A stretch of DNA of 64,000 nucleotides from Pantoea ananatis LMG 2665 (GTDB taxonomy: Bacteria; Pseudomonadota; Gammaproteobacteria; Enterobacterales; Enterobacteriaceae). The stretch covers positions 186,001 to 250,000 of the forward strand of contig NZ_JMJJ01000007.1 in NCBI RefSeq assembly GCF_000710035.2, read 5' to 3'. The notes under the pieces were generated by a model. The model was not told where the DNA came from and did no database searches. It worked only from the letters and a program-made list of their open reading frames with translations. The first letter of the stretch is position 1, and each line of letters begins with the position of its first letter. Of the stretch, positions 7,928-61,026 are shown piece by piece. A program made the translations under genes and the position numbers.

Positions 7928-7988
7928 AACGCACCGTTTTAATTGAGTTTATGACTAAGCCTGGCACATTTGCTGACGGGCGGAAGGA

Positions 7989-9197
7989 TCAGTCCTTGAG
8001 GTGACGACTGGCGAGCCGCACCATCAGGCTGGCAGCGGCGGCGAGCGTGGACAACACCACAACGCCATTCCAGCCCCAGTGGGCAAGCGCCAGGCTGCCC
8101 AGCGCCGCACCGCTGGCCATGCCGATAAACACGATGGTAAACAGTAGGGCGTTAAGACGACTACGTGCATCGGGTACCAGACCATAAATCAGCGTTTGAT
8201 GGGCGACCAGCGTGGCCTGCACGCCTAAGTCGAAACCAAGCGTGCTGATAACGATGACGACCAGCTGACCGGGGAGCGACAGCAGCGGCAGCAAAAACAT
8301 CAGGGCGAAGGCCGCCGTGACCAGGCCGGCACCAAACTGGGTCACGCGTGCCGGGCCGAGTCGATCGGCCAGGTTACCCGCCAGCGGCGCGGCCAGTGCA
8401 CCCGCCGCCCCTGCCAGACCAAAGGCACCGGCGATGGCACTGTCAAAGTGAAAACGTTCGCTAAGCATGATCGCCAGCGTAGACCAGAAGGCGCTGAAGC
8501 TGACAGAAAGCAGCCCCTGAGCCAGGGCCGCGCGCCGCAGGGTCTGATGTTCGCGCCACAGGTGAACCAGCGATAAAAGCAGGCGGGGATAGCTTACCGA
8601 CGTGCCGGGCGTAAAGCGCGGCAGTACACGCCACAACGTCAGGCTAATCAGAAACACAGCCAGGGCCGCGATAATATACATGGTGCGCCAGCCAAAATAC
8701 TCTGCCACCACGCCGCTGACGACCCGGGAGAGTAAAATGCCTACCAGTAATCCCGTCATTACCGTACCCACGGTTTTACCCCGGCTGTGCGCTGGTGCCA
8801 GCGCCGCCGATGCCGGAACAATATCCTGCGCCACGGTCGCCGTCAGGCCGGTGACAAAGCTGGCGATGAGCAGCGCGCTGATACCGCCGGAAAACCCACA
8901 CAGCAGCAGCGCCATCACCAACAGCAGCCCTTTGATCAAAATTATCGTGCGGCGATCGTGGCGATCGCCAAGCGGGGCCAGCAGCAGAATACCTAAAGCA
9001 TACCCGGCCTGCGTTAGCATCGGCACCATGCCTACGGTGCTCACACTGACCTGAAACTGCTTACCGATGATATCCAGCATCGGCTGACTGTAGTAAATCG
9101 AGGCCACGCTCAGGCCCGCGCCGGCAGCAAGCGTAAAGACCAGGGGGGCGGGCAGGCGTTCAGTTGAGTGGGGAGTCATAGTTTTTACCGCTGACAT
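7989..9197 (-). CDS. MFS transporter, drug/sugar efflux type
   Basis: A 402-residue major facilitator with 12 predicted helices. The loop-2/3 motif (APLGDRHDRRTII, near residue 77) and the repeat at loop 8/9 (AGNLADRLGPARV) are typical of the YnfM/YgaY-like branch of exporters. It is divergent from a LysR regulator whose start lies 93 bases away, an arrangement usually meaning the regulator controls the exporter. Substrate unknown. Confidence 0.8.
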   Translation of the reverse strand: MSAVKTMTPHSTERLPAPLVFTLAAGAGLSVASIYYSQPMLDIIGKQFQVSVSTVGMVPMLTQAGYALGILLLAPLGDRHDRRTIILIKGLLLVMALLLCGFSGGISALLIASFVTGLTATVAQDIVPASAALAPAHSRGKTVGTVMTGLLVGILLSRVVSGVVAEYFGWRTMYIIAALAVFLISLTLWRVLPRFTPGTSVSYPRLLLSLVHLWREHQTLRRAALAQGLLSVSFSAFWSTLAIMLSERFHFDSAIAGAFGLAGAAGALAAPLAGNLADRLGPARVTQFGAGLVTAAFALMFLLPLLSLPGQLVVIVISTLGFDLGVQATLVAHQTLIYGLVPDARSRLNALLFTIVFIGMASGAALGSLALAHWGWNGVVVLSTLAAAASLMVRLASRHLKD

Positions 9198-9290
9198 GGT
9201 TACATCCTCAAAAAATAGTGTGGCAAGTAAAGCCTGTTTTTGACATACGCGGTAGACTAATAAAAAGCAAAACGGTTATACGTGGAACGC

Positions 9291-10223
9291 ATGAGCAATT
9301 TCAGTAACAGCGATCGCATCGAACTGATGCACACCTTTATTCGCATTGTCGAAAGCGGCAGTTTGTCTGCCGCAGCGTTGCAACTGGGTATTACGCAACC
9401 GACAATCAGTCGCCGGTTGCAGTCTCTTGAGCAGGGGCTGGGGCTGAAACTGATTCTGCGCACCACCCATGCGCTAAAGCTGACTGATGATGGTGAGCGT
9501 TGCTATGCACAGGCCCGGCAGCTCCTGGCAACCTGGCACGCGCTGGAAGATGAACTGACCGGCGCCGGCAGCGATCCGGTTGGCATCTTGCGGGTGCGCG
9601 CGCCCCACGCTTTTGGCCAGGATCAGCTGGTCACACCGCTGGTGAACTTTATGCGCCGCTATCCGCGTTTGCGCATTGAATGGATGCTGAACGACAGGAC
9701 GCCAGACTTCGTCGCCGAGAACGTGGACTGTGCGATTCAGGTGGGGGCACTGACCGACCCTTCTGTTGTAGCCGTGCTGCTGGCCGAAGTGCCGCGCATT
9801 GTTGTCGCTGCGCCCGCGCTGCTTCAGCAATATCCCCCGATTAACCAGGTGGCGCAACTGGGCGATTTGCCGTGGCTGGCGCTGACGAGTTTCTACCGTA
9901 ACGAGATCGCATTACAACATAAAGACAAGGGGGAACCGATGAATCTGCCTATCGTTCCCCTGCTCAGCAGCGACAGCCTCTTCGCCGTGCGCAAAGCTGC
10001 GCTGGCGGGGCTGGGAACCGCTATTCTGTCGACATGGGTCATTCAGGAGGATCTGGCACAGGGCAATCTGATTCAGCTTATGCCGGAATGGCAGGCTCCC
10101 CCGTTGCCAGTCTGGCTGACCTATCCGTGGGCGAGCTATTATCCCGCCAGGCTGACCGCCTTCTTTGCCATGATCAAAGCGGTATTTCCGCATCTGACGG
10201 GCGCGCGGCCCGCTTCAGCCTGA
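9291..10223 (+). CDS. LysR-type transcriptional regulator
   Basis: A 310-residue LysR protein: winged helix at residues 8-65 (SGSLSAAALQLGITQPTISRRLQSLE), then an effector domain. The ATG at 9291 is preferred to the in-frame GTG at 9282, since it puts the helix at the usual distance from the N-terminus. It is divergent from the MFS exporter and probably regulates it. A TTGACA hexamer at 9240-9245 could be part of a promoter in the shared region, but no well-spaced -10 box was found. Confidence 0.85.
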   Translation: MSNFSNSDRIELMHTFIRIVESGSLSAAALQLGITQPTISRRLQSLEQGLGLKLILRTTHALKLTDDGERCYAQARQLLATWHALEDELTGAGSDPVGILRVRAPHAFGQDQLVTPLVNFMRRYPRLRIEWMLNDRTPDFVAENVDCAIQVGALTDPSVVAVLLAEVPRIVVAAPALLQQYPPINQVAQLGDLPWLALTSFYRNEIALQHKDKGEPMNLPIVPLLSSDSLFAVRKAALAGLGTAILSTWVIQEDLAQGNLIQLMPEWQAPPLPVWLTYPWASYYPARLTAFFAMIKAVFPHLTGARPASA

Positions 10224-10284
10224 AACAGGCCTCCCCCACCGGGGAAGCCGTGTCACCGGACGGCGTCCGGGGGGTTGCCGTCGA

Positions 10285-23700: not shown

Positions 23701-24078
23701 CTAGCCCAACAGGTTAATGAGCGCGAAACCGGCAAAACTCATCAGTAACGAGCCAATGACATGCACCAGCGCACTGCTCATCGCCCACAGGTATTTGCCG
23801 GTCTGCAATAAGGTCATTAACTCTGCTGTAAACGTGGAAAACGTGGTAAGCCCGCCGCATAAGCCCGTAATGATGAGTAACCGCCAGGCGGGATCGAGTG
23901 AGGGATTTTTGATAAACCAGGCCATTGCACCGCCAATCACGAATCCGCCAATCAAATTCACCAGCAAAGTCCCCGGTGGCAGATTGGGGAAAAACGCATT
24001 AAAACGCATACCGAACCACCAACGCAGTACACAGCCCACACTGCCGCCCAAAATCACAGCCAATAGCGGTTTTAACAT
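23701..24078 (-). CDS. crcB: Fluoride ion channel CrcB/Fluc
   Basis: A 125-residue four-helix protein of the Fluc family, which exports fluoride as a dual-topology dimer. Diagnostic residues are GGSVGCVLRWW at the start, GTLLVNLIGGFVIG (the pore Asn) and GLCGGLTTFSTF with the Phe-box. The ATG at 24078 follows GGAG by six bases; longer frames upstream run into the leader. The 5' leader carries a fluoride riboswitch, so function and regulation agree. Confidence 0.95.
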   Translation of the reverse strand: MLKPLLAVILGGSVGCVLRWWFGMRFNAFFPNLPPGTLLVNLIGGFVIGGAMAWFIKNPSLDPAWRLLIITGLCGGLTTFSTFTAELMTLLQTGKYLWAMSSALVHVIGSLLMSFAGFALINLLG

Positions 24079-24124
24079 CACAGACTCCATTTCAGGATTT
24101 GCGCAGAAGAGGGTGGAGGGCCAG

Positions 24125-24183
24125 AAAAAATGCATGCACCTGACACTCCAGCTCCCGCGAAAGGATTAAGGATAATGTCAGGC
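24125..24183 (-). terminator. Conditional terminator of the crcB leader
   Basis: On the minus strand GCCTGACA (at the 3' edge of the riboswitch) pairs with TGTCAGGT about 30 bases on, followed by GCATGCATTTTTT. Because the first arm overlaps the riboswitch, folding of the fluoride-bound aptamer should block the terminator and switch crcB on. Confidence 0.65.
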
Positions 24184-24240
24184 GTCATCAGCCGCAGGTT
24201 ACGCCTGCAGGCGGTTGGGAAAGGTGGAACGCCATCACCT
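24177..24240 (-). promoter_or_regulatory. Fluoride riboswitch (crcB motif)
   Basis: Read on the minus strand: GGTGATGGCGTTCCACC, then AACCGCC, a variable hairpin (TGCAGGCGTAACCTGCGG), and CTGATGACGCCT. These are the conserved pieces of the crcB RNA in the right order and spacing, about 100 bases before crcB. Confidence 0.9.
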
Positions 24241-24425
24241 TATGCGCGCCATAATACGACGCCTTTTTCTGACTGGCAACCACAGTTGAGCGGGGAAATC
24301 AGCAATGCCAACCGACGCCGTCTGGACAGATGCCCCCGCTCAGGCTGCCGCAAAGCAGACGGTTTTGGGCCACACAATTCAGGTTTCCTCTTGAGCCGTT
24401 TTCCGCTTAAATGGTGACCTGCCAG

Positions 24426-43079: not shown

Positions 43080-44411
43080 ATGCAAGCCTCCATCTCAGAA
43101 CCGCTCGATCAGCAAAACGATCCCACGCCAGTAAACTCACGAAGTAAAGTGGTTATCGCCTCGCTGGTTGGCACCGCTATCGAATTCTTCGATTTCTATA
43201 TTTATGCCACCGCAGCCGTCATCGTTTTCCCTCATATCTTCTTTCCTCAGGGTGATGCGACCGTCGCGACGTTGCAGTCGCTGGCCACCTTTGCGATTGC
43301 GTTCATCGCCCGTCCCATCGGCTCTGCCCTGTTTGGTCACTTTGGCGATCGCGTAGGCCGTAAAGCCACCTTGGTTGCCTCACTGCTGACGATGGGGATC
43401 TCGACCGTGGTTATCGGTTTATTACCCAGCTACCAGAGCATTGGCGTTCTGGCTCCGCTGCTGTTGGCGCTGGCGCGTTTTGGTCAGGGGTTGGGCCTGG
43501 GCGGTGAGTGGGGCGGCGCAGCCCTGCTGGCGACGGAAAATGCACCTGCCAAAAAGCGGGCGCTGTACGGCTCCTTCCCGCAGTTGGGCGCACCGATTGG
43601 CTTTTTCTTTGCCAACGGCACCTTTCTACTGCTCTCCTGGCTGCTGACCGATGAGCAATTTATGCAATGGGGCTGGCGCGTCCCTTTTGTTCTGTCTGCC
43701 GTACTGGTCTTGATTGGTCTGTACGTACGCGTATCGCTGCATGAAAGCCCGGTATTCGCCAAAGTACAGAAAGAGAAGAAACAGGTACGTGTGCCGATTG
43801 CCTCGCTCCTGAGCAAACATCTGACGGCAACGATACTTGGCACCTTTATCATGCTTGCCACCTATACGCTGTTTTACATCATGACCGTTTACTCAATGAG
43901 TTACGGCACCGCCGCCGCACCAGCCGGACTGGGTATATCCCGTAACAGTATGCTGTGGATGCTGATGATGGCGGTGATTGGATTTGGCGTGATGGTGCCG
44001 ATTGCGGGCCTGCTTGCTGACCGCTTTGGTCGCCGTAAAACCATGATCGTCATTACGCTGATGATTATTGGCTTTTCATTCCTGTTTCCGGCCATGCTGG
44101 GATCCGGCTCTCAGGCGCTGGTGATGGCGTTCCTGCTGCTGGGCTTGAGCATTATGGGGCTGACGTTTGGCCCGATGGGTGCGCTGCTGCCTGAGCTGTT
44201 CCCGACTGAAGTGCGTTATACCGGCGCATCCTTCTCCTATAATCTGTCGTCGATTTTAGGTGCGTCGGTTGCGCCCTATATTGCGACCTGGCTGAACGCG
44301 CACTATGGCCTATATGCTGTCGGATTGTACCTGGCTTCCATGGCTTTTCTGACGCTGATTGCACTGATTGCCTGCAAAGAAACCCGGCATCAAACGCTGT
44401 ATGAAGTGTGA
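43080..44411 (+). CDS. yhjE: MFS transporter YhjE (metabolite:H+ symporter family)
   Basis: A 443-residue transporter nearly colinear with E. coli YhjE (GTAIEFFDFYIYATAAVIVFPHIFFPQGD, RFGQGLGLGGEWGGAALLATENAP, LFPTEVRYTGASFSYN). Twelve helices; family members carry shikimate, proline/betaine or alpha-ketoglutarate. Substrate not known. It has its own terminator. In E. coli yhjE also follows yhjD, so this is conserved backbone and the cluster after it is the accessory part. Confidence 0.9.
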   Translation: MQASISEPLDQQNDPTPVNSRSKVVIASLVGTAIEFFDFYIYATAAVIVFPHIFFPQGDATVATLQSLATFAIAFIARPIGSALFGHFGDRVGRKATLVASLLTMGISTVVIGLLPSYQSIGVLAPLLLALARFGQGLGLGGEWGGAALLATENAPAKKRALYGSFPQLGAPIGFFFANGTFLLLSWLLTDEQFMQWGWRVPFVLSAVLVLIGLYVRVSLHESPVFAKVQKEKKQVRVPIASLLSKHLTATILGTFIMLATYTLFYIMTVYSMSYGTAAAPAGLGISRNSMLWMLMMAVIGFGVMVPIAGLLADRFGRRKTMIVITLMIIGFSFLFPAMLGSGSQALVMAFLLLGLSIMGLTFGPMGALLPELFPTEVRYTGASFSYNLSSILGASVAPYIATWLNAHYGLYAVGLYLASMAFLTLIALIACKETRHQTLYEV

Positions 44412-44435
44412 TACCCGATAACGTTAAAGACACTC

Positions 44436-44460
44436 AACCCGGCTCAGGCCGGGTTTTTTA
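44436..44460 (+). terminator. Rho-independent terminator of yhjE
   Basis: AACCCGGC / GCCGGGTT around TCAG followed by a run of T. It marks the left limit of the hil cluster. Confidence 0.9.
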
Positions 44461-44475
44461 TCGTTTCCGATCACG

Positions 44476-45387
44476 CTATTTCGCTTTAAGCCAGGCCATA
44501 AAATCGTCGATAAAGACACGGGTTTTTAGTGGTAACAGACGGTTGGGTAAGGTAATGGCGTAAGTGGTCATTGAGAGCGTATTTTCAATCCGCCAGTCTG
44601 GTAACACGCGGCGTAACTGCCCGTTGAGCAAATAACCATTTGCAATAAAGGTGGGGATTAACGCAATACCCACACCCTGCAATATCGCATCGATCATGGC
44701 ATCACTGTTATTTATCATCAGCCGGGGCGTAAGTGTAACGCTCTCCATCGTGTCGTTTAACCAGAAACGCCATTCACCGCGAAACTGTGCGTCGTCAGGG
44801 AAGAAAATATTATGCTGTTTGAGGTCGCCCGGCATATCAGGCAGCCTTTGATCGTAGTGCTCTGCACATACTAAAACATAGTCAACAGGCATTAATGCCC
44901 GCGCTACCATATTGATGGGTGGCGTATCCGTGACGCGTAATGCCAGGTCGTACGACTCATGCGTGAGATTAATCAGATGGTCAGTGAGATTGAGCTCAAT
45001 ATTGATTTCAGCATAGCGTCGCAGAAAACCAGGCAGGAACGGCGTCAGTAAAATCTTCCCAAGCGTTGTCGGCGCAGTAATACGCAGTAACCCCTTAGGG
45101 ACATCGCTGTAACTGTCTGCCTGAGAAAACAGGGATTTAGTTGCGGCGATAACTGATAAAGCCTGGTGATATATTTCCTGCCCGGCCTCGGTCACAGCGA
45201 GCGCGCGCGTCGAGCGGGTAAAGAGTAAAACATTTAGCCTTTTTTCCAACCTGTCTATCATACGACTCACTGAAGACGGCGTCATGGATAGCGCTCTGGC
45301 AGCTGAGGAAAAGCTACCACTTTCAACCACCTGAACAAACAAAACCAATCCAGGCAAGACTTCCGTTAATTCATTTATGTTCTTCAC
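44476..45387 (-). CDS. LysR-type regulator divergent from the hil cluster
   Basis: A 303-residue regulator: winged helix at 14-70 (GSFSSAARALSMTPSSVSRMIDRLEKRL), then a two-lobed effector domain beginning GLLRITAPTTLGKILLTPFL. It starts 118 bases from the first cluster gene on the opposite strand. LysR proteins usually activate the divergent unit in response to a pathway compound; an inverted repeat between them fits the T-N11-A rule. The effector could be isoleucine, a hydroxyisoleucine or the final product (inference). Confidence 0.8.
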   Translation of the reverse strand: MKNINELTEVLPGLVLFVQVVESGSFSSAARALSMTPSSVSRMIDRLEKRLNVLLFTRSTRALAVTEAGQEIYHQALSVIAATKSLFSQADSYSDVPKGLLRITAPTTLGKILLTPFLPGFLRRYAEINIELNLTDHLINLTHESYDLALRVTDTPPINMVARALMPVDYVLVCAEHYDQRLPDMPGDLKQHNIFFPDDAQFRGEWRFWLNDTMESVTLTPRLMINNSDAMIDAILQGVGIALIPTFIANGYLLNGQLRRVLPDWRIENTLSMTTYAITLPNRLLPLKTRVFIDDFMAWLKAK

Positions 45388-45429
45388 GCACAGCTCTTTT
45401 GCATCTCAACTATCTAGCCAAGCTAGCAC

Positions 45430-45447
45430 TGAACAGTATGATGTTCA
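45430..45447. promoter_or_regulatory. Candidate LysR operator of the hil cluster
   Basis: TGAACA-N6-TGTTCA, a perfect 6-base inverted repeat containing a T-N11-A element, lies midway between the divergent starts at 45387 and 45506. A TTTACA hexamer at 45455-45460 may be the -35 of the cluster promoter; the matching -10 is unclear. Confidence 0.55.
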
Positions 45448-45505
45448 ACAGAGGTTTACATCCGTGAAACCTTATTATTCTTAATACTTTAATTACAGGC
45501 TAGCT

Positions 45506-46477
45506 ATGTTTGAACATGCAGTAATCAAACGCATTGAACAACATGACGTATTAAATGTTGGTGTGAGTTTAGGTTTTAAAGGCCTTTCGCAGCGCGACCC
45601 CCTCAACAACAGCTGGAATGGATTTGATATTGATTTGGCACGCGCTGTGGCTATCAGCGTACTGGGAGACGGCGGCAAAATCCATTTTATACCTTTGCAA
45701 TCGGCTGATCGCTTCCAGGCCCTACGTGATGGCGTCATCGATCTTGGCACCTTTAACGCTAGCGTGACCTTTCAGCGCGAAGCGGAGTACGGCATTAATT
45801 TCCTACATCCGATGTTGTTTGATGGGGAAGTGCTGATGACTCCGCGCAGTAACCTCACTGAAGAAACGCCACAAGCCAGGTTCACTCGTCAGCGTCGTAT
45901 TGCTGCGATGCGTGGCTCAACAACTGAAGAGAACCTCACTCGCTATTTTGATGAACTTAACCTGCCCTGTGAGATTCTGCTATTTGACTCTCCGCAGCAA
46001 GCGAGGCAAGCCTACGAATCAGGAGAATGTGATATCTACTGTCTGGATGGTTATCTGCTAGCGGGTGAACATCACCAGTTAACAGACAGCAGCCAACATC
46101 TTATCCTGGACGATCGCATTTCACTTGAGGCAATGGCACCCGCCGTTAGCGCCAGTGATTCACAGTGGTATATTGCGACAAAATGGGTTATGCGCGCACT
46201 GATTGAAGCTGAGAATCTGGGTATTACCCAAAAAAACATTTTAGAAAAAAGTGATAATCCTGAGGGTTATTTAAAAACGTTTCTCTATCCCGATGTGAAT
46301 TTGTGTTCGCAACTCGGTCTACAACCTGACTTTATTAGAGAGATAATACGTAAAATTGGCAACTATGGTGAGATTTTTGAGCGTAACCTGGGTAAAAACT
46401 CAGAATTAAAACAACAGCGCCGCGACAATAAACCTTGGGCGGAAGGCGGAATGCTCTGGTCACCTCTTTTTATTTGA
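45506..46477 (+). CDS. AapJ-type amino-acid-binding protein without signal peptide
   Basis: A 323-residue protein resembling the general L-amino-acid binding proteins (AapJ family) from end to end: LNVGVSLGFKGLS near the start, WNGFDIDLARAVA, ADRFQALRDGVIDLGTFN, CDIYCLDGYLLA and the C-terminal GNYGEIFERNLGKNSELK. Those proteins are periplasmic, but here the chain starts directly at the mature domain: an in-frame TAA lies only eight codons before the ATG and no signal peptide is encoded. It should therefore stay in the cytoplasm as a carrier, sensor or enzyme. First gene of the cluster, 29 bases before hilA. Confidence 0.8.
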   Translation: MFEHAVIKRIEQHDVLNVGVSLGFKGLSQRDPLNNSWNGFDIDLARAVAISVLGDGGKIHFIPLQSADRFQALRDGVIDLGTFNASVTFQREAEYGINFLHPMLFDGEVLMTPRSNLTEETPQARFTRQRRIAAMRGSTTEENLTRYFDELNLPCEILLFDSPQQARQAYESGECDIYCLDGYLLAGEHHQLTDSSQHLILDDRISLEAMAPAVSASDSQWYIATKWVMRALIEAENLGITQKNILEKSDNPEGYLKTFLYPDVNLCSQLGLQPDFIREIIRKIGNYGEIFERNLGKNSELKQQRRDNKPWAEGGMLWSPLFI

Positions 46478-46506
46478 TTTCTTAAATTCAATGGCATGGA
46501 AACATT

Positions 46507-47397
46507 ATGACTGATTTACTGACCTTAGAACCTACGCAAACAATATTAACGGGTTCAAAAAAAACAAACTTTGGCTATCTGGAATCAACAGATGGCGTTA
46601 TTAACTTCTCCATTGTTAAAAACATTATTCTTAACGGCCATCATCATGGCAATGTTTTATATGTTATTCGTAATTACGCATCAAAAGCCGTGTGCGAAAA
46701 ACTTGCAAAAAACTTTGATTACAGGGTCACCCAAAGTGGAGGGAATCGCGCTGACGATGGCTTTGTTTTAACCAATCAGATCGGTGCAACGCAGTTTTCG
46801 CGTAATGGTGAACAATATATTCATGAGGTCAATCGTGTGAATCAAAGCGTCGCCGACCTGATGAAAGCAACCAGCGCAGAAGATAGTGAATCACTTTTCC
46901 TCAACCTGACGCTGGAAAAAGAATTTTTAGAACGAGGTATTCATTTTGGTCCGGCACGATTCAAAAACGGCTATGCCTGTTTTGCAACCTTTCGTCGCTG
47001 GCTTGATAACGGTGTGATGTCACTTATGCCACATGAAGATATGGCACAGGTTGACTTTGCAAAAGAAGACGGCTTTGAGATTGCGAATACTCAAACTGTA
47101 ACAGCCTATAATGTTTGTCTGGAAGCTGCGCAGGGTGGTGGCCAACTTAAAATCTGGAATCTCATTCCTGACCAGGTGTGCCGTGAAACACTTGGCGTAA
47201 CACGAACAGGTTATCCTTATCCACCCCATCTGTTAAATGAAACCGAATCCCTTTCTGTTCAGCTCAATGCTGGCGATCTTTACTTTATGAATGCTTGTCA
47301 CTTACACGGCGTAAGCAGTGTAAGTGAAGGAAGCCGACTCACTGCTGGACGATTTATTGGAAAACTGAATGACCGTAAGGTGGTTTACTGGACATAG
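46507..47397 (+). CDS. hilA: L-isoleucine 4'-dioxygenase HilA
   Basis: A 296-residue Fe(II)/2-oxoglutarate-dependent dioxygenase of the 2OG-FeII_Oxy_3 type. The iron triad is visible as His176-Glu-Asp178 (MPHEDMAQVDF) and distal His267, with the 2-oxoglutarate-binding Arg277 (HGVSSVSEGSR). In Pantoea ananatis a tandem hilA-hilB pair of exactly these two families was shown to convert L-isoleucine to 4'-hydroxyisoleucine and then 4,4'-dihydroxyisoleucine; the assignment here rests on family and order. GGAAA precedes the ATG. The gene is A+T-rich (the row at 46561-46620 has 20 G+C of 60), unlike the flanks. Confidence 0.8.
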   Translation: MTDLLTLEPTQTILTGSKKTNFGYLESTDGVINFSIVKNIILNGHHHGNVLYVIRNYASKAVCEKLAKNFDYRVTQSGGNRADDGFVLTNQIGATQFSRNGEQYIHEVNRVNQSVADLMKATSAEDSESLFLNLTLEKEFLERGIHFGPARFKNGYACFATFRRWLDNGVMSLMPHEDMAQVDFAKEDGFEIANTQTVTAYNVCLEAAQGGGQLKIWNLIPDQVCRETLGVTRTGYPYPPHLLNETESLSVQLNAGDLYFMNACHLHGVSSVSEGSRLTAGRFIGKLNDRKVVYWT

Positions 47398-47444
47398 CTT
47401 ATGGAATGTATTTGAAACTATCCTTTTAATGCAGAGATAAATAA

Positions 47445-48188
47445 ATGATGGAATATGCAACGCATCTCTCCAGGCAAGGCTATGCCTTTATTCCCGGTGA
47501 TTATTATCGTTCAATTGAAGCCATGCAGTTTTCGAATAAAGAAGATTTCTTAGATGAGCTGGAAGAATTAAAAAAAGGCTATGAGAATTTACTTCTTGAT
47601 CCTTATTCGCCAGGAAACCGCTGGCGCGGTTATGCTCAATGCAAAAAAAATGAAAAGGGCGAATTAACCTTTGGAAAATTCAACCCTTATAAACAAACAA
47701 AAGCTTTTAATCCTGATACTGGTGATATTGTTCGCGATTATCCGCTATTGCCTGAAGCGATCACCCGCAATCGTCTGTTTCAAACGCTGTTGCACGATGA
47801 TTTATCGTTAGTAGACGCTTATGAAAGCATTGGCCCTGTCGACAGCCTGACCATTGGCATTCATTTTTTTCGTTATCAGGCCACGGAAAATGAGCCTGCT
47901 TATAGCTCGCCCGTCTGGCTGCATAAAGACGATGAAGACGTGGTGTTTGTGCATATGATTAATGCCTCACCGAATATGCTGGGCGGAGACAGTCTGATTG
48001 CCAGCCATCCTCGCAGCATTGATCGCGTGCTGCGTCTGGAACAGCTTTTTGACACCTTAGTGGTTAATCACGACAAACTTCATGCCGTCACTCCCGTTGG
48101 CGCACGTGAAAACAGTGGCCCTGCTCAACGCGACATCATTCTGATCACGTTTCAGAAAAACGAGGAGAAGACAGCATGTCCGGTCTGA
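47445..48188 (+). CDS. hilB: L-4'-hydroxyisoleucine 4-dioxygenase HilB
   Basis: A 247-residue 2OG-Fe(II) dioxygenase of the 2OG-Fe_Oxy_2 (BsmA/IDO) family. Its second half lines up with the Bacillus thuringiensis isoleucine 4-hydroxylase IDO: SSPVWLHKDDEDVVF with His160 and Asp162, GGDSLIA, LHAVTP with His213, and RDIILITF with Arg229. It should hydroxylate C-4 of the HilA product. Two adjacent ATG codons (47445, 47448) are both possible starts. It overlaps the next gene by 13 bases, so translation is coupled. A+T-rich like hilA. Confidence 0.85.
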   Translation: MMEYATHLSRQGYAFIPGDYYRSIEAMQFSNKEDFLDELEELKKGYENLLLDPYSPGNRWRGYAQCKKNEKGELTFGKFNPYKQTKAFNPDTGDIVRDYPLLPEAITRNRLFQTLLHDDLSLVDAYESIGPVDSLTIGIHFFRYQATENEPAYSSPVWLHKDDEDVVFVHMINASPNMLGGDSLIASHPRSIDRVLRLEQLFDTLVVNHDKLHAVTPVGARENSGPAQRDIILITFQKNEEKTACPV

Positions 48189-48910
48189 AGCTTAAAGCCA
48201 TTATCACGGGGGCATCCAGCGGAATTGGCCGCGCGCTGGTCAAGGCTTTCCTGGACAAAGGTTATCAGGTTGAGGGTATCGATCGTTCATCATCGGAATT
48301 TAACGATACGTCAGCCTATCGCCATCATCAGCTGGACGTGACTGACTCAGTCAGCCTGGCTGCACTTTTCGAAACTCTGGAGTACGGCGAGGCTAATAAC
48401 GTTCTGATTAACTGTGCCGGTACGCGTGAAATTTGCAGTATCGCGGATTTAACGCTGGCGCAGTGGGAATCCGTTTTTGCCCTTAACGTGACAGCCAGTT
48501 TTATAGCAGGTCGTGCTTTTTGCCAACAGTTGGTAAACCAGAACCGCCCCGGAAATATGGTTAATTTGGCCTCCGTTTCAGGATTGATGGGCGAGCCTGA
48601 TCGAACGGCTTATGTCTCATCGAAACATGCCGTCATTGGACTGACGAAACAACTGGCACTCGAATACGGCAAACACGGTATTCGTGTCAATGCGATTGCG
48701 CCCGGCGTTATTCGTACGCCACTGACGGAGTCTTATTACCACGATGACTCGCAGCTTGAAAAAATTAAGCGTGGCCAGTTTTTACCGGTACTGGGTGAGA
48801 CAGGTGACGTTGCCGAAGCGGCACTTTATCTGACCGCCCCGGAGAATCGTTTTGTCACAGGTTCAACACTGGTCATCGATGGTGGCTGGACGCTGGGAAA
48901 AGATCTTTAA
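48176..48910 (+). CDS. Short-chain dehydrogenase/reductase of the hil cluster
   Basis: A 244-residue SDR with GASSGIG at 12-18, NCAG near 79, catalytic Ser in LASVSG and Tyr146/Lys150 (YVSSK), and APGVIRTPL. The Asp-ending second strand (GIDRS) suggests NAD preference. In the cluster context it probably oxidises one of the hydroxyl groups put on by HilA/HilB, or reduces an intermediate, as BacC does in bacilysin synthesis (inference). Coupled to hilB by overlap. Confidence 0.85.
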   Translation: MSGLKLKAIITGASSGIGRALVKAFLDKGYQVEGIDRSSSEFNDTSAYRHHQLDVTDSVSLAALFETLEYGEANNVLINCAGTREICSIADLTLAQWESVFALNVTASFIAGRAFCQQLVNQNRPGNMVNLASVSGLMGEPDRTAYVSSKHAVIGLTKQLALEYGKHGIRVNAIAPGVIRTPLTESYYHDDSQLEKIKRGQFLPVLGETGDVAEAALYLTAPENRFVTGSTLVIDGGWTLGKDL

Positions 48911-48958
48911 CTTTCTTGGGTCAGATAAACGGCCCAACCTCTTTGCAGGAGAAGCAAC

Positions 48959-50215
48959 ATGGATAAGCGTTATATATTAATTTTAGGCGGTGAGTTTTCC
49001 CTTCGTGAACGTGTATTAGCAGGTGCACTGCGCGCAGCAGGCGGAATGCAGGTGCTCACCATGGCAAAAAATCGTACCAATGCCGCAATCAAATTTTTTG
49101 ACGGCTATTTGTCAGGTGATGTCGCCGATGAAAACGCCGTATTGGATGCAGTAAAAGCCCATGAAGCCTCAACCGGATGCAAACCCGCCGCGGCTATCCC
49201 CATGAATGATTTCACTGTCCGCGCCGCCAGTCTGGTGGCTGAACATTATCAGCTTCACGGTAATAGTCGTCAGACTATTCATAATTGCCGTGACAAGTTT
49301 GTCATGAAGCAACTGCTGGAGAAGGCCGGATTACCGGTGCCACGTTTTGCCGCATTCAGTACGCTGGAAGAACTCAGACACCATATTCGTGATATTGGGC
49401 TGCCTGTCGTTATTAAGCCCCGTGAAATGGCAGGTAGTCTTGGTGTTCTGAAGATTACCCGTGAAGAGGAGATTGAACCGAGCTTTGCCAGAAGTGTGGC
49501 TGACGTCATCTCACTTAACGGTGAATCCTATGCTCCCGAAGACCTGTTCCAGGTGGAAGAGTACATTCCCTCCCTTCAGGAAGTCAGCGTCGAGGTAATA
49601 AATCAAGGTGACTACCACAAAGCTATTGCGGTAACGGATAAATACCTGGGCGAGGAACCTCATTTTGTTGAAGTGGGGCACAGTGTCCCTTCCGTTCATG
49701 CCAGTAACGCACAGTTGCGGGATATCGCGGAGCGCGCCTGTCATGCCCTGGGCATTCATTATGGCGTGGCGCATTTTGAAGCGCGAATTACCCCCGCCGG
49801 AGAGATCAAAATCATTGAAGTGGGTGCCCGCACCGGCGGCGACACGATTATGGATCTGGTTGAACGGAGCTATGGCATTAATCCTTATGAGCTGCATGTA
49901 GCAAGCCATTTAAACGCGCTTAAACCCCTTGCAGAACCTTTAGTGCCGAAAGGCCTGAGTGCAGTGGCCTTTATAAAAGCGCCTGTCGGCACAATTGAGA
50001 AAGTGACACTTCCTGCCAGCCTTCCTGATCACATTGTGAATATGCAGATCACCGCAAAACCGCTGGATACATCGAAGAAGCTCGAGTCCTGGAAAACACG
50101 TGAGGGATCGGTAGAGTTTTTTTGGCCCAGCCGGAAACCGGAAACCGGTTTTAATGAGCATCTACGCACAGCGGATGACCTGGCGACTACGCTCTTTACC
50201 TTACGCCAGGCGTAA
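48959..50215 (+). CDS. ATP-grasp ligase (probable L-amino acid ligase)
   Basis: A 418-residue ATP-grasp enzyme. The N-terminal pre-grasp domain (ILILGGEFSLRERVL) is followed by the ATP-binding part (PVVIKPREMAGSLGVLKI, QVEEYIPSLQEVSVEV) and the metal-binding IIEVGARTGGDTIMDLV near residue 290. The layout is that of BacD/DdaF-like ligases, which join two amino acids through an acyl-phosphate. It is the likely assembly enzyme, coupling the modified isoleucine to a second amino acid or acid. It starts 48 bases after the SDR. Confidence 0.85.
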   Translation: MDKRYILILGGEFSLRERVLAGALRAAGGMQVLTMAKNRTNAAIKFFDGYLSGDVADENAVLDAVKAHEASTGCKPAAAIPMNDFTVRAASLVAEHYQLHGNSRQTIHNCRDKFVMKQLLEKAGLPVPRFAAFSTLEELRHHIRDIGLPVVIKPREMAGSLGVLKITREEEIEPSFARSVADVISLNGESYAPEDLFQVEEYIPSLQEVSVEVINQGDYHKAIAVTDKYLGEEPHFVEVGHSVPSVHASNAQLRDIAERACHALGIHYGVAHFEARITPAGEIKIIEVGARTGGDTIMDLVERSYGINPYELHVASHLNALKPLAEPLVPKGLSAVAFIKAPVGTIEKVTLPASLPDHIVNMQITAKPLDTSKKLESWKTREGSVEFFWPSRKPETGFNEHLRTADDLATTLFTLRQA

Positions 50216-50261
50216 TTATTTTTGAGCCGCTGCAAAGCGGCTTTCAAGCAGGAGTACCCTT

Positions 50262-51503
50262 ATGTCTGCTGAAAACTTCGGTTTAAAGCGCTTCGTTTTT
50301 TCCCGTTTTGTCGGCGCGTTGTGCGATCAGTTCTTACTGTTTGCTGTTCCTCTGGCTATTCTCAAGGCGACAGGGTCGCTTACGCTTTCATCCCTGGCCT
50401 TTGTCATTGAATGGCTGCCACGCATTATTTTCTTCCCGTTATCAGGATTTATGGCTGACCGCATCAAGCCCCGTTTCATCTTTTTCAATGTCGATGCTCT
50501 TCGTGCCTTACTGATGGGGGCCGTCTTCGCCCTTCTTTACTGGTATCCGGGGTCAACTTTTCCGGCCCTGGCCGCGATGATGGCTTTGTTGTCTGTAGCC
50601 TATGTACTCAACTTTGTGGCCACGGATGCCCTCTTGCCTCGTCATTTGTCCAGTGAAGCCTTGCCGAAAGCCCACTCCATGCTCCAGGGCGTCGATCAAA
50701 TCACTATGGTATTGGGGCCTGCTATCGCGGTTGCGATTTCTTCGTGGGGCGGCATCGACAGCATTTTGATCGTCGCAGCTGTTCTGTTTGCCATTTCGGC
50801 TATTAATTATCTTTTTTTGGAAACACACGATCTAGATGTGACGGAAAAGCTAGGGTTTCATACCTTACTGGCATCTAACCGAACGGCATTGCACGTGCTC
50901 AAGAAAAACAAAATACTGCTGCATCTTTGCGCCCTGACCTGGGTCGTGAATCTGGTTTACGGCGCGGCGCTGGTCGTGAGCGCAGCGGTCATTTTAAAAG
51001 AGTTCAACCTGTCCGATCGCTACTTTGGCGCCTTGCAGACAACAGCAGCTCTCGTCACTATCGTGGCATTCTTCTTTGTTCCCAGGTTTGCCAGCCGCTT
51101 TGGTTTGTCCACGTTGGGAACATTTTCGTTTTGCGCCATGATTCTTGCGGGTGCCATAATGTCGCTGTCCGTTGATTACGCAATGTATCTGGCAGGCTAT
51201 GCTGTGCTGATGGCTTTTGACGGTGCATTCAGTGTTTATTTGCGCACGTTGAGAAGCCAGGTCATTCCTAAAGAACATTTAGGGAAAACCATGGGAATTA
51301 TTGGCTTGATGAACATGTGTTCAGTACCGGCGAGTGGGGCTGTGGTATCGCTGCTGTCCGGGCATTTTATGCCGCTGCAAATCATTAGCATTATTCTGGT
51401 TGCCGCATTAGTGTTTGGCTTGCTTTTGATTTTCTTCGGGCGCCGTGTCTTTGGCTATAAAAGTTTATTACCCCCAGTGATCGTGTCAGAGCCATCCTGT
51501 TAA
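50262..51503 (+). CDS. MFS exporter of the hil cluster
   Basis: A 413-residue twelve-helix transporter of the DHA/MFS_3 type (RFVGALCDQFLLFAVPLAI in helix 1, the GFMADRIKPRF loop, YLRTLRSQVIPKEHLGKTMG in loop 10). It has the size and place of the exporter and self-resistance gene in dipeptide antibiotic clusters (compare BacE). It lies 46 bases after the ligase and ends the unit before a strong terminator. Confidence 0.85.
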   Translation: MSAENFGLKRFVFSRFVGALCDQFLLFAVPLAILKATGSLTLSSLAFVIEWLPRIIFFPLSGFMADRIKPRFIFFNVDALRALLMGAVFALLYWYPGSTFPALAAMMALLSVAYVLNFVATDALLPRHLSSEALPKAHSMLQGVDQITMVLGPAIAVAISSWGGIDSILIVAAVLFAISAINYLFLETHDLDVTEKLGFHTLLASNRTALHVLKKNKILLHLCALTWVVNLVYGAALVVSAAVILKEFNLSDRYFGALQTTAALVTIVAFFFVPRFASRFGLSTLGTFSFCAMILAGAIMSLSVDYAMYLAGYAVLMAFDGAFSVYLRTLRSQVIPKEHLGKTMGIIGLMNMCSVPASGAVVSLLSGHFMPLQIISIILVAALVFGLLLIFFGRRVFGYKSLLPPVIVSEPSC

Positions 51504-51550
51504 CTTTTTTCATACCTGAATTTTCATAACAAGCCGCAGGCTTAATACAT

Positions 51551-51584
51551 AAAAAGGGCGCAGCCAGATGGCTGCGCCCTTTTT
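51551..51584. terminator. Bidirectional terminator between the hil cluster and ilvC
   Basis: A 15-bp perfect stem (AAAAAGGGCGCAGCC with its complement) around AGAT, with A and T runs at the two ends, so it works for both converging units. It marks the right limit of the hil cluster. Confidence 0.95.
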
Positions 51585-51621
51585 GCATGTGCTGTTTTGC
51601 TGAAAACAGTGGCGGTGCGGC

Positions 51622-58547: not shown

Positions 58548-58805
58548 CTACGCGCGTATTTGTTGTGATGTCTGTTGTTGAGTCTGGACGCAGGCGACAT
58601 CCATCAGTTTTCTTAGCTGGGAAGACAGTAAATCGACAGAGCGCTGGCTGGCAACGGTCATTTCGATATTAATGTTTTCAGTGTTAGCCACGGTGGCCAT
58701 GTTCATGGAACACACCTGAAAACCACGATGGCGTACCACACGTAAAATACGTTCCAATATTTCAGGTCGAAAGCGCGCTTCGATAGACAATTGATGCTGG
58801 TTCAT
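58548..58805 (-). CDS. ilvM: Acetolactate synthase II small subunit IlvM
   Basis: An 85-residue ACT-domain subunit ([24 protein letters not shown]). It activates and stabilises IlvG. The ATG overlaps the ilvG stop by four bases. Confidence 0.95.
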
Positions 58806-60448
58806 ACGGTTTTCTCCATCATGTTGGCGTTGCTGGCACCAGGCGGTACCAATGGCCAGACGTTTTCATGCTCATCGATTGAAACATGCAGGAAGTAAGG
58901 TCCTTCACTGCTCAGCAGAGCATCGAGTGCGGCGTCGACCTGATCTTTACGGGTGATGCGCTGGCCTGGGATATCAAACGCGCTGGCCAGCGTAAGGAAG
59001 TCGGGATTATCGGTCAGGATGGTTTCACTGTAGCGACCATCAAAAAACAGTTGCTGCCACTGGCGCACCATGCCTAAACGCTGGTTGTCCAGCAGCAGAA
59101 TTTTTACAGGCAGCTTGCCACGCTTGATGGTGCCCAGCTCCTGAATGTTCATCATGATCGAGCCATCGCCCGAGACGCAGATAACCGTATCGTTGGGACG
59201 CGCAACCTGCGCACCGATTGCCGCGGGCAGCCCAAAGCCCATGGTGCCTAATCCGCTGGAGGTGATGAAATCTTCAGGCGCGTCACAGGAGATATGCTGG
59301 GCCGCCCACATCTGGTGCTGGCCGACGTCGGTCGTGATCACGGTGTTAGCAGGCTTGCGGTCGGACAGTTGTTTCAATAATAACGGCGCATAGATCGCTT
59401 CGCCGGGATGATCGTAGCGCCATGCATGCTGGGCTTTCAGGGCGGCGACTTCGTCACGCCATGTCTGAATCTGTAAAGGCTGGCTCAAGGCTGGCAGAAC
59501 ATGGTTAAGATCGCCCTGCAGTGAAACATGCGCACGGCGCAACTTGTTCAGTTCTGCGGGATCAACATCCAGATGAATCACGCTGGCCAGCGGGGCAAAC
59601 GTATCCAGTTTACCGGTGACGCGGTCGTCAAAACGCGCGCCAACGGCAATCAACAGGTCACAGGACTGCACGGCAAGGTTTGCGGCCTTAGTACCGTGCA
59701 TGCCCAGCATGCCCAGATAGCCTTCGCTGTGGGCGTCAACACTTCCCAGGCCTTTCAGCGTGGCGACAGCAGGGATGCCGGTCTCCTGCATCAGCGCGCG
59801 CAGCGCCGGCACGGCCTGCGCCATCCCTACACCGCCGCCCACATAGAATATCGGCTTTTTAGCCTGAGCCATCATGGCGCGCGCTTCAACAATGGCCTGG
59901 TGCGGCATCGACATCACTTCTTCGACCGGCATCAACTGCGGCGAAGGCTCGCCTTTTGCCATCTGGATATCTTTCGGGATATCCACTAATACAGGACCGG
60001 GGCGGCCTGACTGGGCAATAGCGAAGGCTTCGGCCATGACGGAAGGCAACTCGTCCAGAGACTCAACCATAAAGCTGTGTTTCGTGCAGGCTAATGACAG
60101 GCCAAGAACATCGATTTCCTGGAATGCATCCGTGCCGATGAACGCAGAGGCGACCTGCCCGGTTAAGGCGACGACCGGAACAGAGTCCATCATGGCGTCG
60201 GCAAGACCGGTGATCAGATTCGTCGCGCCGGGGCCAGAGGTTGCGATGCAAACGCCGGTTTTGCCGGTTGAACGGGCATAGCCGATTGCGGCCATTACCG
60301 CGCCCTGCTCATGACGGCACAACAGGTGTTCTACGCCGCCGTCGTATAGCGCATCGTATACTGGCATGATCGCGCCACCAGGATAGCCAAATACGATATC
60401 AACGCCCTGTGCGCGTAAAGCCTGAACTACCCATTGTGCACCTGTCAT
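58802..60448 (-). CDS. ilvG: Acetolactate synthase II large subunit IlvG (intact)
   Basis: A 548-residue thiamine-diphosphate enzyme. The activating Glu is in [13 protein letters not shown] (about E47), the FAD region is in the middle and the cofactor-binding [17 protein letters not shown] is near residue 430. The frame is unbroken, unlike the frameshifted E. coli K-12 allele. The ATG at 60448 follows AGGAG and gives the normal N-terminus. First common step of isoleucine/valine synthesis. Confidence 0.97.
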
Positions 60449-60540
60449 CGCTATTCTCCTGTATTCCGAGGGGAACAACAGAATTTTATGCTACTGTTCA
60501 TTGTTTGTTCCTTGCAGATTTACTAAGTTTTTGCCAGGTC

Positions 60541-60580
60541 AAAAAAAACCCCCCGGACCTTTCGGTGCGGGGGGTTTTTT
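60541..60580 (-). terminator. Attenuator terminator of the ilvGMEDA leader
   Basis: C6/G6 stem with an inner ACC/GGT pairing around GAAA, followed on the minus strand by eight T residues. It lies 18 bases after the leader peptide gene and 90 bases before ilvG: the classic attenuation arrangement. Confidence 0.95.
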
Positions 60581-60598
60581 AGAGTTCTGGCTTGATTT

Positions 60599-60697
60599 TT
60601 AAGCCTTTCTTGCTCCAAGCGTTGCCCCGCACAGTGGGTTAATAATCACCACCACGCTAATCACGACAAGGCTAATCACTAGTAGAAGGGCTTTCAT
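60599..60697 (-). CDS. ilvL: ilvGMEDA leader peptide IlvL
   Basis: A 32-residue leader peptide (same length as E. coli IlvL). It is packed with regulatory codons: 13 of the first 19 residues are Leu, Val or Ile (LLLVISLVVISVVVII), with one Pro-Leu pair after. Ribosome stalling when charged Leu, Val or Ile tRNA is scarce prevents the attenuator from forming. Ends 18 bases before the terminator. Confidence 0.95.
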   Translation of the reverse strand: MKALLLVISLVVISVVVIINPLCGATLGARKA

Positions 60698-61026
60698 AAC
60701 GTATTCGATTCTTTAACTCGTTCGAAGTAATGCCTACAGAGTTATCATAGTTACCTCTCTAATTACAATAGTTTTTATCAGGTTTTTTAATCACGCAGGT
60801 TTACCGTATTCATTATCGAATTGTTATTAAAAGATTATTTTATCATCCGGGGTTCCGGACAAAAAAAGGCCGCTCATTGCATTTTGACGATTTCACACTC
60901 TGCTTCTGCAAATGTGAAACCCGATGTATGGCAGATAAAAAGTTTGCGGGGCGACATACATTTCCTTGTTCTGGGCTTCGCTACACCTGAATTCCGCGTA
61001 CAGAATGACCGCATTTGGGGGCCGCT
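60698..61026. promoter_or_regulatory. Divergent region between ilvL and yifB
   Basis: An A+T-rich, 329-base gap. A TATGAT hexamer on the minus strand (60749-60744) is a plausible -10 for ilvL, about 47 bases from its start, but no good -35 was found. On the yifB side there is an inverted repeat TTTCACA-N15-TGTGAAA (60891-60919). No other gene is seen. Confidence 0.5.

Follow-up and report, generated by a model that had tools for sequence, protein, structure and literature searches.

The hil locus of Pantoea ananatis LMG 2665 lies at positions 44476 to 51503 of the 64,000-nucleotide stretch of contig NZ_JMJJ01000007.1 analysed here (hereafter the window). We read it as a small and complete pathway in which HilP, a relative of amino-acid-binding proteins, would handle a gamma-oxo intermediate inside the cell before the ligase HilD couples it and HilE exports the product; we put the probability of this reading as a whole at about 0.55. 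HilA would hydroxylate the branch methyl (C4') of L-isoleucine and HilB its C4, after which HilC, judging from its conserved residues, would oxidise C4 to a ketone, giving 2-amino-3-(hydroxymethyl)-4-oxopentanoate. HilP, having lost its export signal, may hold or convert this reactive gamma-oxo amino acid in the cell, and the simplest conversion would be a loss of water to a 3-methylidene-4-oxo compound (an enone). As in the scheme of Smirnov et al., HilD would then join the gamma-oxo amino acid to a second amino acid, thereby masking it, and HilE would export the dipeptide, with HilR presumably controlling the operon.

HilP, a leaderless relative of amino-acid-binding proteins

The location of HilP is the best supported part of this reading. 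An in-frame TAA stands 24 nt upstream of the hilP ATG with no start codon in between, and among the best 120 homologues none of the 42 informative members of the closest 45 has a hydrophobic N-terminal stretch, as against 72 of the 74 informative others; P0053 and P0093 are the two below the leader threshold. Incomplete proteins were left out of the residue, cysteine and leader counts (P0019, P0043 and P0045 of the leaderless set, and P0058 of the other set, HilP-like in look). In an unrooted tree of 58 rows (32 leaderless, 26 with a leader), the leaderless proteins are set apart by a branch with a support of 100/100, which amounts to one origin if the root is assumed to lie among leadered proteins. 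Four positions carry cysteines, probably paired as disulfides, in the AapJ-type relatives (74, 73, 73 and 74 of 74), and the counts fall to 1, 0, 0 and 34 of 46 in the leaderless proteins; in the HilP of the window, those at 18, 45 and 133 are replaced and that at 175 is kept. This loss of likely disulfides fits the reducing cytosol, and we consider it highly likely that HilP is intracellular. A separate homologue at the level of AapJ (256 bits) is encoded elsewhere in the same genome.

These observations bear directly on the published model, in which, in the part of Smirnov et al. (2013) drawn on here, HilP is a periplasmic or extracellular signal sensor and the product of HilABCDE is a dipeptide containing oxidised dihydroxyisoleucine. 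The SBP_bac_3 domain speaks for such a sensor, and the enzymatic half of the model agrees with our own reading. However, HilP has neither a signal peptide nor an upstream start, its cysteine set is lost, and the seven genes of the hil island include no ATP-binding cassette (ABC) genes by Pfam, so that we regard an extracellular sensor as very improbable.

The ligand pocket of HilP is both conserved and altered. Position 108 is E in 46/46 leaderless proteins and Q in 74/74 of the others, and R91, T139 and D181, which we take to be the amino-acid-anchoring residues of this binding-protein family, are kept in 46/46 leaderless proteins. The predicted structure (predicted local distance difference test 95.0, predicted template-modelling score 0.92) matches 4z9n, presumably an AapJ/BztA-type general L-amino-acid binding protein, over its whole length with a template-modelling (TM) score of 0.94 at 33% identity. 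The counterpart of position 108 in the ancestral CDT protein 5tuj is position 100, and Lys100 is, with the general acid Glu173, among the nine active-site residues of PheC (PaCDT) given in the part of PMC10520331 used here. Three of the ten leaderless-specific positions coincide with these nine (p = 0.005). On the other hand, HilP keeps Thr132 alone of the nine, the Glu173 position being L184, and PheC orthology was rejected because the active site is not kept (1/9 residues). The pocket thus appears remodelled, yet HilP is not a PheC.

That HilP binds or acts on a gamma-oxo amino acid is rather probable. It may do so as a non-catalytic intracellular binder that sequesters a toxic gamma-oxo amino acid for self-protection or passes it to HilD or the exporter, a real possibility that we hold at somewhat under even odds: the anchor residues and the full-length solute-binding protein (SBP) fold are retained, and HilP belongs to the five-gene core, HilD and HilE being bacterium-specific in the account of PMC3684760, as far as drawn on here. 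The family-wide change from Q to E at the PaCDT Lys100 position and the coincidence with active-site positions count against a mere binder, but a changed ligand would fit them equally well. That HilP is itself a catalyst is a tentative and somewhat unlikely alternative.

A predicted route from isoleucine to a gamma-oxo amino acid

Both dioxygenases pass their equivalog cut-offs (HilA, 578.4 bits against NF041274 with a cut-off of 500; HilB, 457.3 bits against NF042428 with a cut-off of 350), and the Protein Data Bank (PDB) matches of HilB are 8w8h and 6lnh (L-isoleucine-4-hydroxylase). The HilA triad H176, D178 and H267, presumably its Fe ligands by the HxD...H motif, is kept in 73/73 homologues. 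WelO5-type halogenases have an Fe site without a carboxylate ligand (HxG); HilA as such a halogenase was ruled out, as HxD...H in all 73 indicates a hydroxylase. Hydroxylation of isoleucine at C4' by HilA and at C4 by HilB has been shown for the P. ananatis AJ13355 proteins in the portion of PMC3684760 consulted, and the assignment of the two as an isoleucine dihydroxylation pair in a preliminary description of this DNA, made from its letters and open reading frames (ORFs), is borne out by these data.

The next step falls to HilC, a short-chain dehydrogenase/reductase (SDR) whose best PDB match is 4-hydroxyisoleucine dehydrogenase 5gwr (192.6 bits, 44% identity; 184.5 bits for its variant 5gwt); dihydroanticapsin dehydrogenase BacC comes next (128.1 bits). 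Nine catalytic, substrate-contacting or selectivity residues of 4-hydroxyisoleucine dehydrogenase, as listed in the part of PMC5651801 drawn on (R88, S137, E144, R147, Y150, L187, T188, Y191 and W242), are all identical in HilC (9/9) and kept in 6/6 orthologues checked, save for L187M in two Erwinia. Because the substrate residues of this dehydrogenase are kept, a C4 ketone is expected of HilC, by what would be an NAD+-dependent oxidation, and very probably it forms one; 4,4'-dihydroxyisoleucine should then yield the 3-hydroxymethyl ketone named above. This product would be a hydroxylated relative of the antimetabolite 2-amino-3-methyl-4-ketopentanoate (AMKP), which is described as a vitamin B12 antimetabolite (PMC5651801) and as inhibitory in minimal medium only (PMC3684760), in the parts of these papers used. 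Chemical reasoning suggests that a beta-hydroxymethyl ketone readily dehydrates to an enone. The calculated [M+H]+ values along the proposed route are 148.097 and 164.092 after the two hydroxylations, 162.076 for the HilC product (mass 161.069) and 144.066 for a dehydrated form of it (mass 143.058). The preliminary description had also let the SDR oxidise dihydroxyisoleucine, which stands and can now be specified as C4 ketone formation from the HilC residues, whereas two of the ring products that it considered do not: a pyrroline from a 4-oxo or 4'-oxo group would require a four-membered ring, and an internal C4/C4' hemiacetal is likewise ruled out by ring size.

Proposed ligation and export, and the probable end product

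HilD matches L-amino acid ligase BL00235 (3vot; 76.7 bits, 1.7e-20) and BacD (66.7 bits, 1.8e-17) in the PDB. Its ATP-grasp region is related to ligases of the BacD/BL00235 type, and we predict a dipeptide-forming ligase. HilE has a match to MFS_1, the major facilitator superfamily (MFS), with a TIGR00900 score under its cut-off. The split of roles among HilC, HilD and HilE along the lines of BacC, BacD and BacE, as first suggested from the sequence, is matched by PDB hits to BacC and BacD and by the MFS family, and the end product of the hil pathway is probably a dipeptide. Of the subsets used, A1 and A4 comprised 43 rows, A3 30 rows, and A2 34 of the HilD homologues, of which 120 were listed.

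As for the dipeptide antibiotic of the preliminary description, the biosynthetic unit is supported but the idea is not new: a dipeptide antibiotic made by HilD and exported by HilE, or furanone or lactone signals, had been proposed in the part of PMC3684760 drawn on here. Among the open-access papers listed on dihydroxyisoleucine only that one treats hil, and no later report on the hil product was found in the open-access literature. The second of these proposals, a signal of the 2(5H)-furanone or acyl-lactone type in place of an antimetabolite dipeptide, with HilD acylating a lactone, draws on the fact that gamma-lactones could form from either the 4-OH or the 4'-OH. We find it unlikely, as the best PDB matches of HilD are L-amino-acid ligases, the C4-OH should be lost in the HilC step, and the trio of HilC, HilD and HilE mirrors bacilysin roles.

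Two side observations concern the ligase. In two Ramlibacter metagenome-assembled genomes (loci L024 and L025, about 7000-10260), a HilD-type ligase (57-59%) adjoins a luciferase-like monooxygenase, in L025 also with a flavin reductase, which makes a third context for this ligase. In Xenorhabdus nematophila (P0282), HilC residues 7-217 run in frame into HilD residues 170-418, which looks like a deletion damaging both hilC and hilD.

A possible second pathway with HilP

Leaderless HilP also occurs in clusters of another kind. In Rubrivivax (L028) the order is HilP, MutS (so named because it is 69% identical to the protein of L074), aspartate-semialdehyde dehydrogenase, an aspartokinase-type kinase, MutE, a dioxygenase of the clavaminate-synthase/VioC type, HilD and HilE. 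Ramlibacter L074 has HilP, an EamA-family transporter, MutS, semialdehyde dehydrogenase, kinase, MutE and a dioxygenase of the same type (60% identical to that of Rubrivivax); another contig of its genome (L024) encodes a HilD-type ligase. Read chemically, such a mutase cluster would make and then oxidise 3-methylaspartate semialdehyde to a beta-branched gamma-oxo amino acid. Rubrivivax HilD is 61% identical to that of the window, as compared with 49% for Kineosporia and 50% for Erwinia, both from hil clusters, which fits a ligase seeing a similar amino acid; the Rahnella and Enterobacillus HilD are nearer still (74-80%). Two routes, one from isoleucine and one by glutamate mutase, thus appear to meet in beta-branched gamma-oxo amino acids, and HilP seems to track the gamma-oxo amino acid and not the HilA/HilB dioxygenases.

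A role outside the chemistry, with HilP as a cytosolic ligand-sensing partner of HilR, would suit the divergent hilR-hilP layout and the control region between the two genes, where ATGTTCAAC and TCTA-CCAA blocks, putative control elements, are kept in 6/6 aligned sequences. It is nevertheless decidedly unlikely: the HilP-bearing Kineosporia and Rubrivivax loci have no HilR match at 1e-4, and the sole LysR match in Ramlibacter is partial (32%) and some 6 kb away from HilP.

Weighing the role of HilP

The boldest form of our reading makes HilP a new enzyme class with a single origin from an amino-acid-binding protein through the loss of its export signal. It would be a dehydratase (or isomerase) that turns 2-amino-3-(hydroxymethyl)-4-oxo acids into a 3-methylidene-4-oxo (enone) warhead, recruited to two unrelated pathways (from isoleucine via HilABC; from glutamate via mutase, kinase, semialdehyde dehydrogenase and dioxygenase) that feed the same kind of ligase-exporter pair. 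We consider this doubtful.

Several observations weigh against the pathway reading or parts of it. HilP lacks the Glu173 of the only SBP-derived dehydratase compared, in the description of it used here, so that dehydration is a guess. The hil clusters of Erwinia sp. 198 and E. phyllosphaerae (L026, L027) have no HilP, with nothing above the AapJ level in their genomes, and the same holds for the genome of Chryseobacterium L032; HilP would therefore be dispensable or replaceable in some such pathways. Both Erwinia clusters encode, between A-B-C and D-E, an oxygenase of the TauD/VioC type, a protein of 115 aa and a fold-type-I pyridoxal-phosphate enzyme related to MocR-type aminotransferases, MppQ, GntC and VioD. 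Cyclodehydratases are among the relatives of this enzyme, and an activity of that kind could suit as a replacement for the dehydration, though this is a hint only. Upstream of hilP in Kineosporia, the other strand carries a LacI gene and, beyond it, sugar-type ABC genes (SBP_bac_1, BPD_transp_1); we take this ABC set as a neighbour and not as a partner of HilP. The mutase-type clusters number only two, and in Ramlibacter L074 MutE is split into two overlapping ORFs and the 14 kb covered hold no ligase (the contig begins 2.9 kb before HilP). Finally, the choice of C4 over C4' by HilC rests on homology, and the second substrate of HilD is not deducible from its sequence.

The island and the spread of the cassette

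The seven genes form an island of 7.1 kb with a GC content of 0.473 as compared with about 0.546 in both flanks (Table 1). Alignment to seven Pantoea relatives ends at 44412-44461 and restarts at 51592-51619. In 7/7 of these relatives, no more than about 2.1 kb separates a homologue of the upstream MFS gene (43080-44411) from ilvC; the site is short and empty in five (208-511 nt between the aligned flanks), and in the other two it holds different inserts of 1.9-2.1 kb (L119, about 2.1 kb; L124, about 1.9 kb), so that the 3' side of ilvC may be an insertion hotspot. The neighbours of the hil loci checked in Rahnella, Enterobacillus and Kineosporia differ. Given the exact island and these differing neighbours elsewhere, the seven genes appear to move together as a single cassette.

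Gene positions, order, spacing and the single overlap are as the preliminary description gave them, and its family calls (LysR regulator, binding-protein homologue, two dioxygenases, SDR, ATP-grasp ligase, MFS transporter) are matched by Pfam. Its cluster of six genes has the right gene set but becomes seven once the LysR gene is counted, and the binding-protein homologue, to which it gave no role, is present and is here a leaderless and apparently intracellular part of the pathway. The gaps from hilR to hilE are 118, 29, 47, -13, 48 and 46 nt, the sole overlap being hilB/hilC. The terminators that it placed on the two sides were both found. The right one was read directly off the sequence and is unlisted by the consensus terminator scan; the 118-nt hilE-ilvC gap around it gives folding z-scores of -5.5 and -4.9, one per strand.

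Table 1. Features of the hil island and its borders (window positions; 2OG, 2-oxoglutarate)
Feature	Position	Strand	Description	Basis
hilR	44476-45387	-	LysR-type regulator, divergent	ORF list and Pfam family
hilP	45506-46477	+	SBP_bac_3 family; leaderless derivative of AapJ-type amino-acid-binding proteins	
hilA	46507-47397	+	L-isoleucine 4'-(3(1)-)dioxygenase	WelO5-like 2OG oxygenase, NF041274
hilB	47445-48188	+	4'-hydroxyisoleucine 4-dioxygenase	2OG-Fe_Oxy_2, NF042428
hilC	48176-48910	+	SDR, 4-hydroxyisoleucine dehydrogenase type; predicted C4-OH to C4=O	
hilD	48959-50215	+	ATP-grasp ligase, L-amino-acid-ligase type	PF13535
hilE	50262-51503	+	MFS transporter, presumed exporter	MFS_1
Bidirectional terminator 3' of upstream MFS gene	44436-44455	.		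consensus scan and folding
Bidirectional terminator, hilE/ilvC gap	51551-51584	.		perfect GC-rich stem, A5/T5 ends
hilR-hilP divergent control region	45388-45505	.		alignment
Horizontally acquired island, exactly hilR-hilE	44462-51592	.		alignment to 7 Pantoea relatives and GC

The order P-A-B-C-D-E recurs in four Rahnella loci, in Enterobacillus tribolii and in the actinobacterium Kineosporia mesophila, whose hil proteins are 43-51% identical to those of the window; a fifth Rahnella locus, truncated at a contig end, retains B-C-D-E. HilR is 73-76% identical in the five Rahnella/Enterobacillus loci that hold one. Among 35 loci with a HilD-type ligase, further hil genes are clear in 11 (L018-L023, L026-L028, L032, L035), three show only weak extra matches (L036, L044, L048) and 21 have the ligase alone (1e-4). 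Matching by the length of the longest contig links 20 of 44 leaderless HilP proteins to a HilA or HilD hit, as against 1 of the 24 AapJ-type rows compared, a short contig and perhaps a chance match. Both the conserved gene order and the co-occurrence of the ligase with hilAB, to which the preliminary description had tied its reading, are therefore seen in other genomes. The matches to HilA and HilD in Chryseobacterium L032, which has A-, D- and E-like pieces, look broken. HilP, HilA and HilD homologues of 73-81% identity (P0005, P0125, P0198) carry the name Salmonella enterica, with subsp. salamae added in the case of HilA and HilD.

The cassette is rare in the sampled genomes. Above the cut-offs, HilA was found in 1/394 genomes of the order and 1/369 of the class, and HilB in 1/61 of the genus, in each case the window's own; at E 0.001, weaker matches bring HilA to five genomes in the order and four in the class and HilB to four in the genus, the own genome included. 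A HilD model at 1e-60 found 1/399 genomes of the Rubrivivax order and a HilP model at 1e-70 found 1/374 genomes of the Kineosporia class, only the centre genome in each case. In the phylum, the HilP model at 1e-70 matched 134/378 genomes, with 533 bits for the window's own gene and 319 bits for the next best listed, and by score alone these matches are probably AapJ-type. A scan of genome contigs with HilA alone gave 29 pattern matches, none of them confirmed, and a near-identity search of E. coli genomes gave no hil match.

A plasmid-borne hil was also rejected. Among 72,556 plasmid records, tblastn found no HilB match at 1e-15, only distant HilA relatives in eight (27-30% identity), HilD relatives at 1e-30 in three (31-39%) and HilP relatives at 1e-50 in 27, of which the 15 listed are at the AapJ level (35-37%). 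Loci L077, L078 and L079 have other oxygenases and no further hil gene bar distant ATP-grasp matches in L078 and L079. At 6298-9076 of L079 (G228:C3:197000-215000, same genus), a different ATP-grasp ligase (28% to HilD) lies near a weak HilA-like oxygenase match (29%); we suppose that this region could be another dipeptide cluster, such as one of the dapdiamide type.

Other features of the window

Elsewhere in the window, a fluoride riboswitch (RF01734, 45.4 bits, 24172-24248, minus strand) stands directly upstream of a 144-aa ORF (23701-24135, minus strand) that we take to be CrcB-like. The Rev39 5'UTR of Rfam (RF02744, 147.5 bits) lies at 60464-60773 on the minus strand, at the start of an ORF (58802-60478) that runs leftward.

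Comparison with known systems

The cluster and the dipeptide idea are already known. In the part of Smirnov et al. (2013, PMC3684760) drawn on here, hilR, hilP, hilA, hilB, hilC, hilD and hilE are named and their layout listed for P. ananatis and Rahnella, and the hil operon of P. ananatis AJ13355 has the same seven genes and roles as the window, which holds the core (hilR, hilP, hilA, hilB and hilC) together with hilD and hilE of the Pantoea/Rahnella type. That account places HilP outside the cell as a possible signal sensor and treats HilC as an AMKP reductase homologue with its oxidised product unspecified, whereas in our reading HilP stays inside the cell and HilC forms a C4 ketone. Beyond that account, our study contributes a HilP read as intracellular and with an altered pocket, the prediction of a C4 ketone, the exact borders of the island, a copy of the cluster in Kineosporia and a second pathway that includes HilP. 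With HilP moved from sensor to apparent intracellular pathway part, the search for the hil product should become easier.

The isoleucine dioxygenase (IDO)/AMKP pathway of Bacillus thuringiensis (5gwr) resembles hil in pairing a PF10014 hydroxylase with an SDR to give a gamma-oxo, beta-methyl amino acid. It is described with a hydroxylase, a reductase and an RhtA-type exporter only, and the part of PMC3684760 used names no methyl hydroxylase or ligase for it. Bacilysin (bac) and hil are alike in that an SDR oxidises the warhead, followed by an ATP-grasp ligase and an MFS exporter. The bacilysin warhead, however, comes from prephenate and not from isoleucine, and by Pfam none of the seven island genes is bacA or bacB, the genes for prephenate-derived anticapsin. 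We know of no binding-protein relative in the bacilysin pathway. From the apparent convergence of two routes, beta-branched gamma-oxo amino acids may form a wider class of bacterial antimetabolite.

HilP itself shares its fold and anchors with AapJ/BztA-type proteins (4z9n), but it lacks their leader, three of their four cysteines and, within the island, their ABC partner genes. PheC (PaCDT), an enzyme thought to derive from a solute-binding protein in the source consulted, has a signal sequence whereas HilP has none; residue 108 of HilP aligns with its Lys100, yet the nearest solved relative of HilP is an AapJ-type protein. If HilP is catalytic, it would represent another transition from binding protein to enzyme, in a compartment and a branch other than those of PheC.

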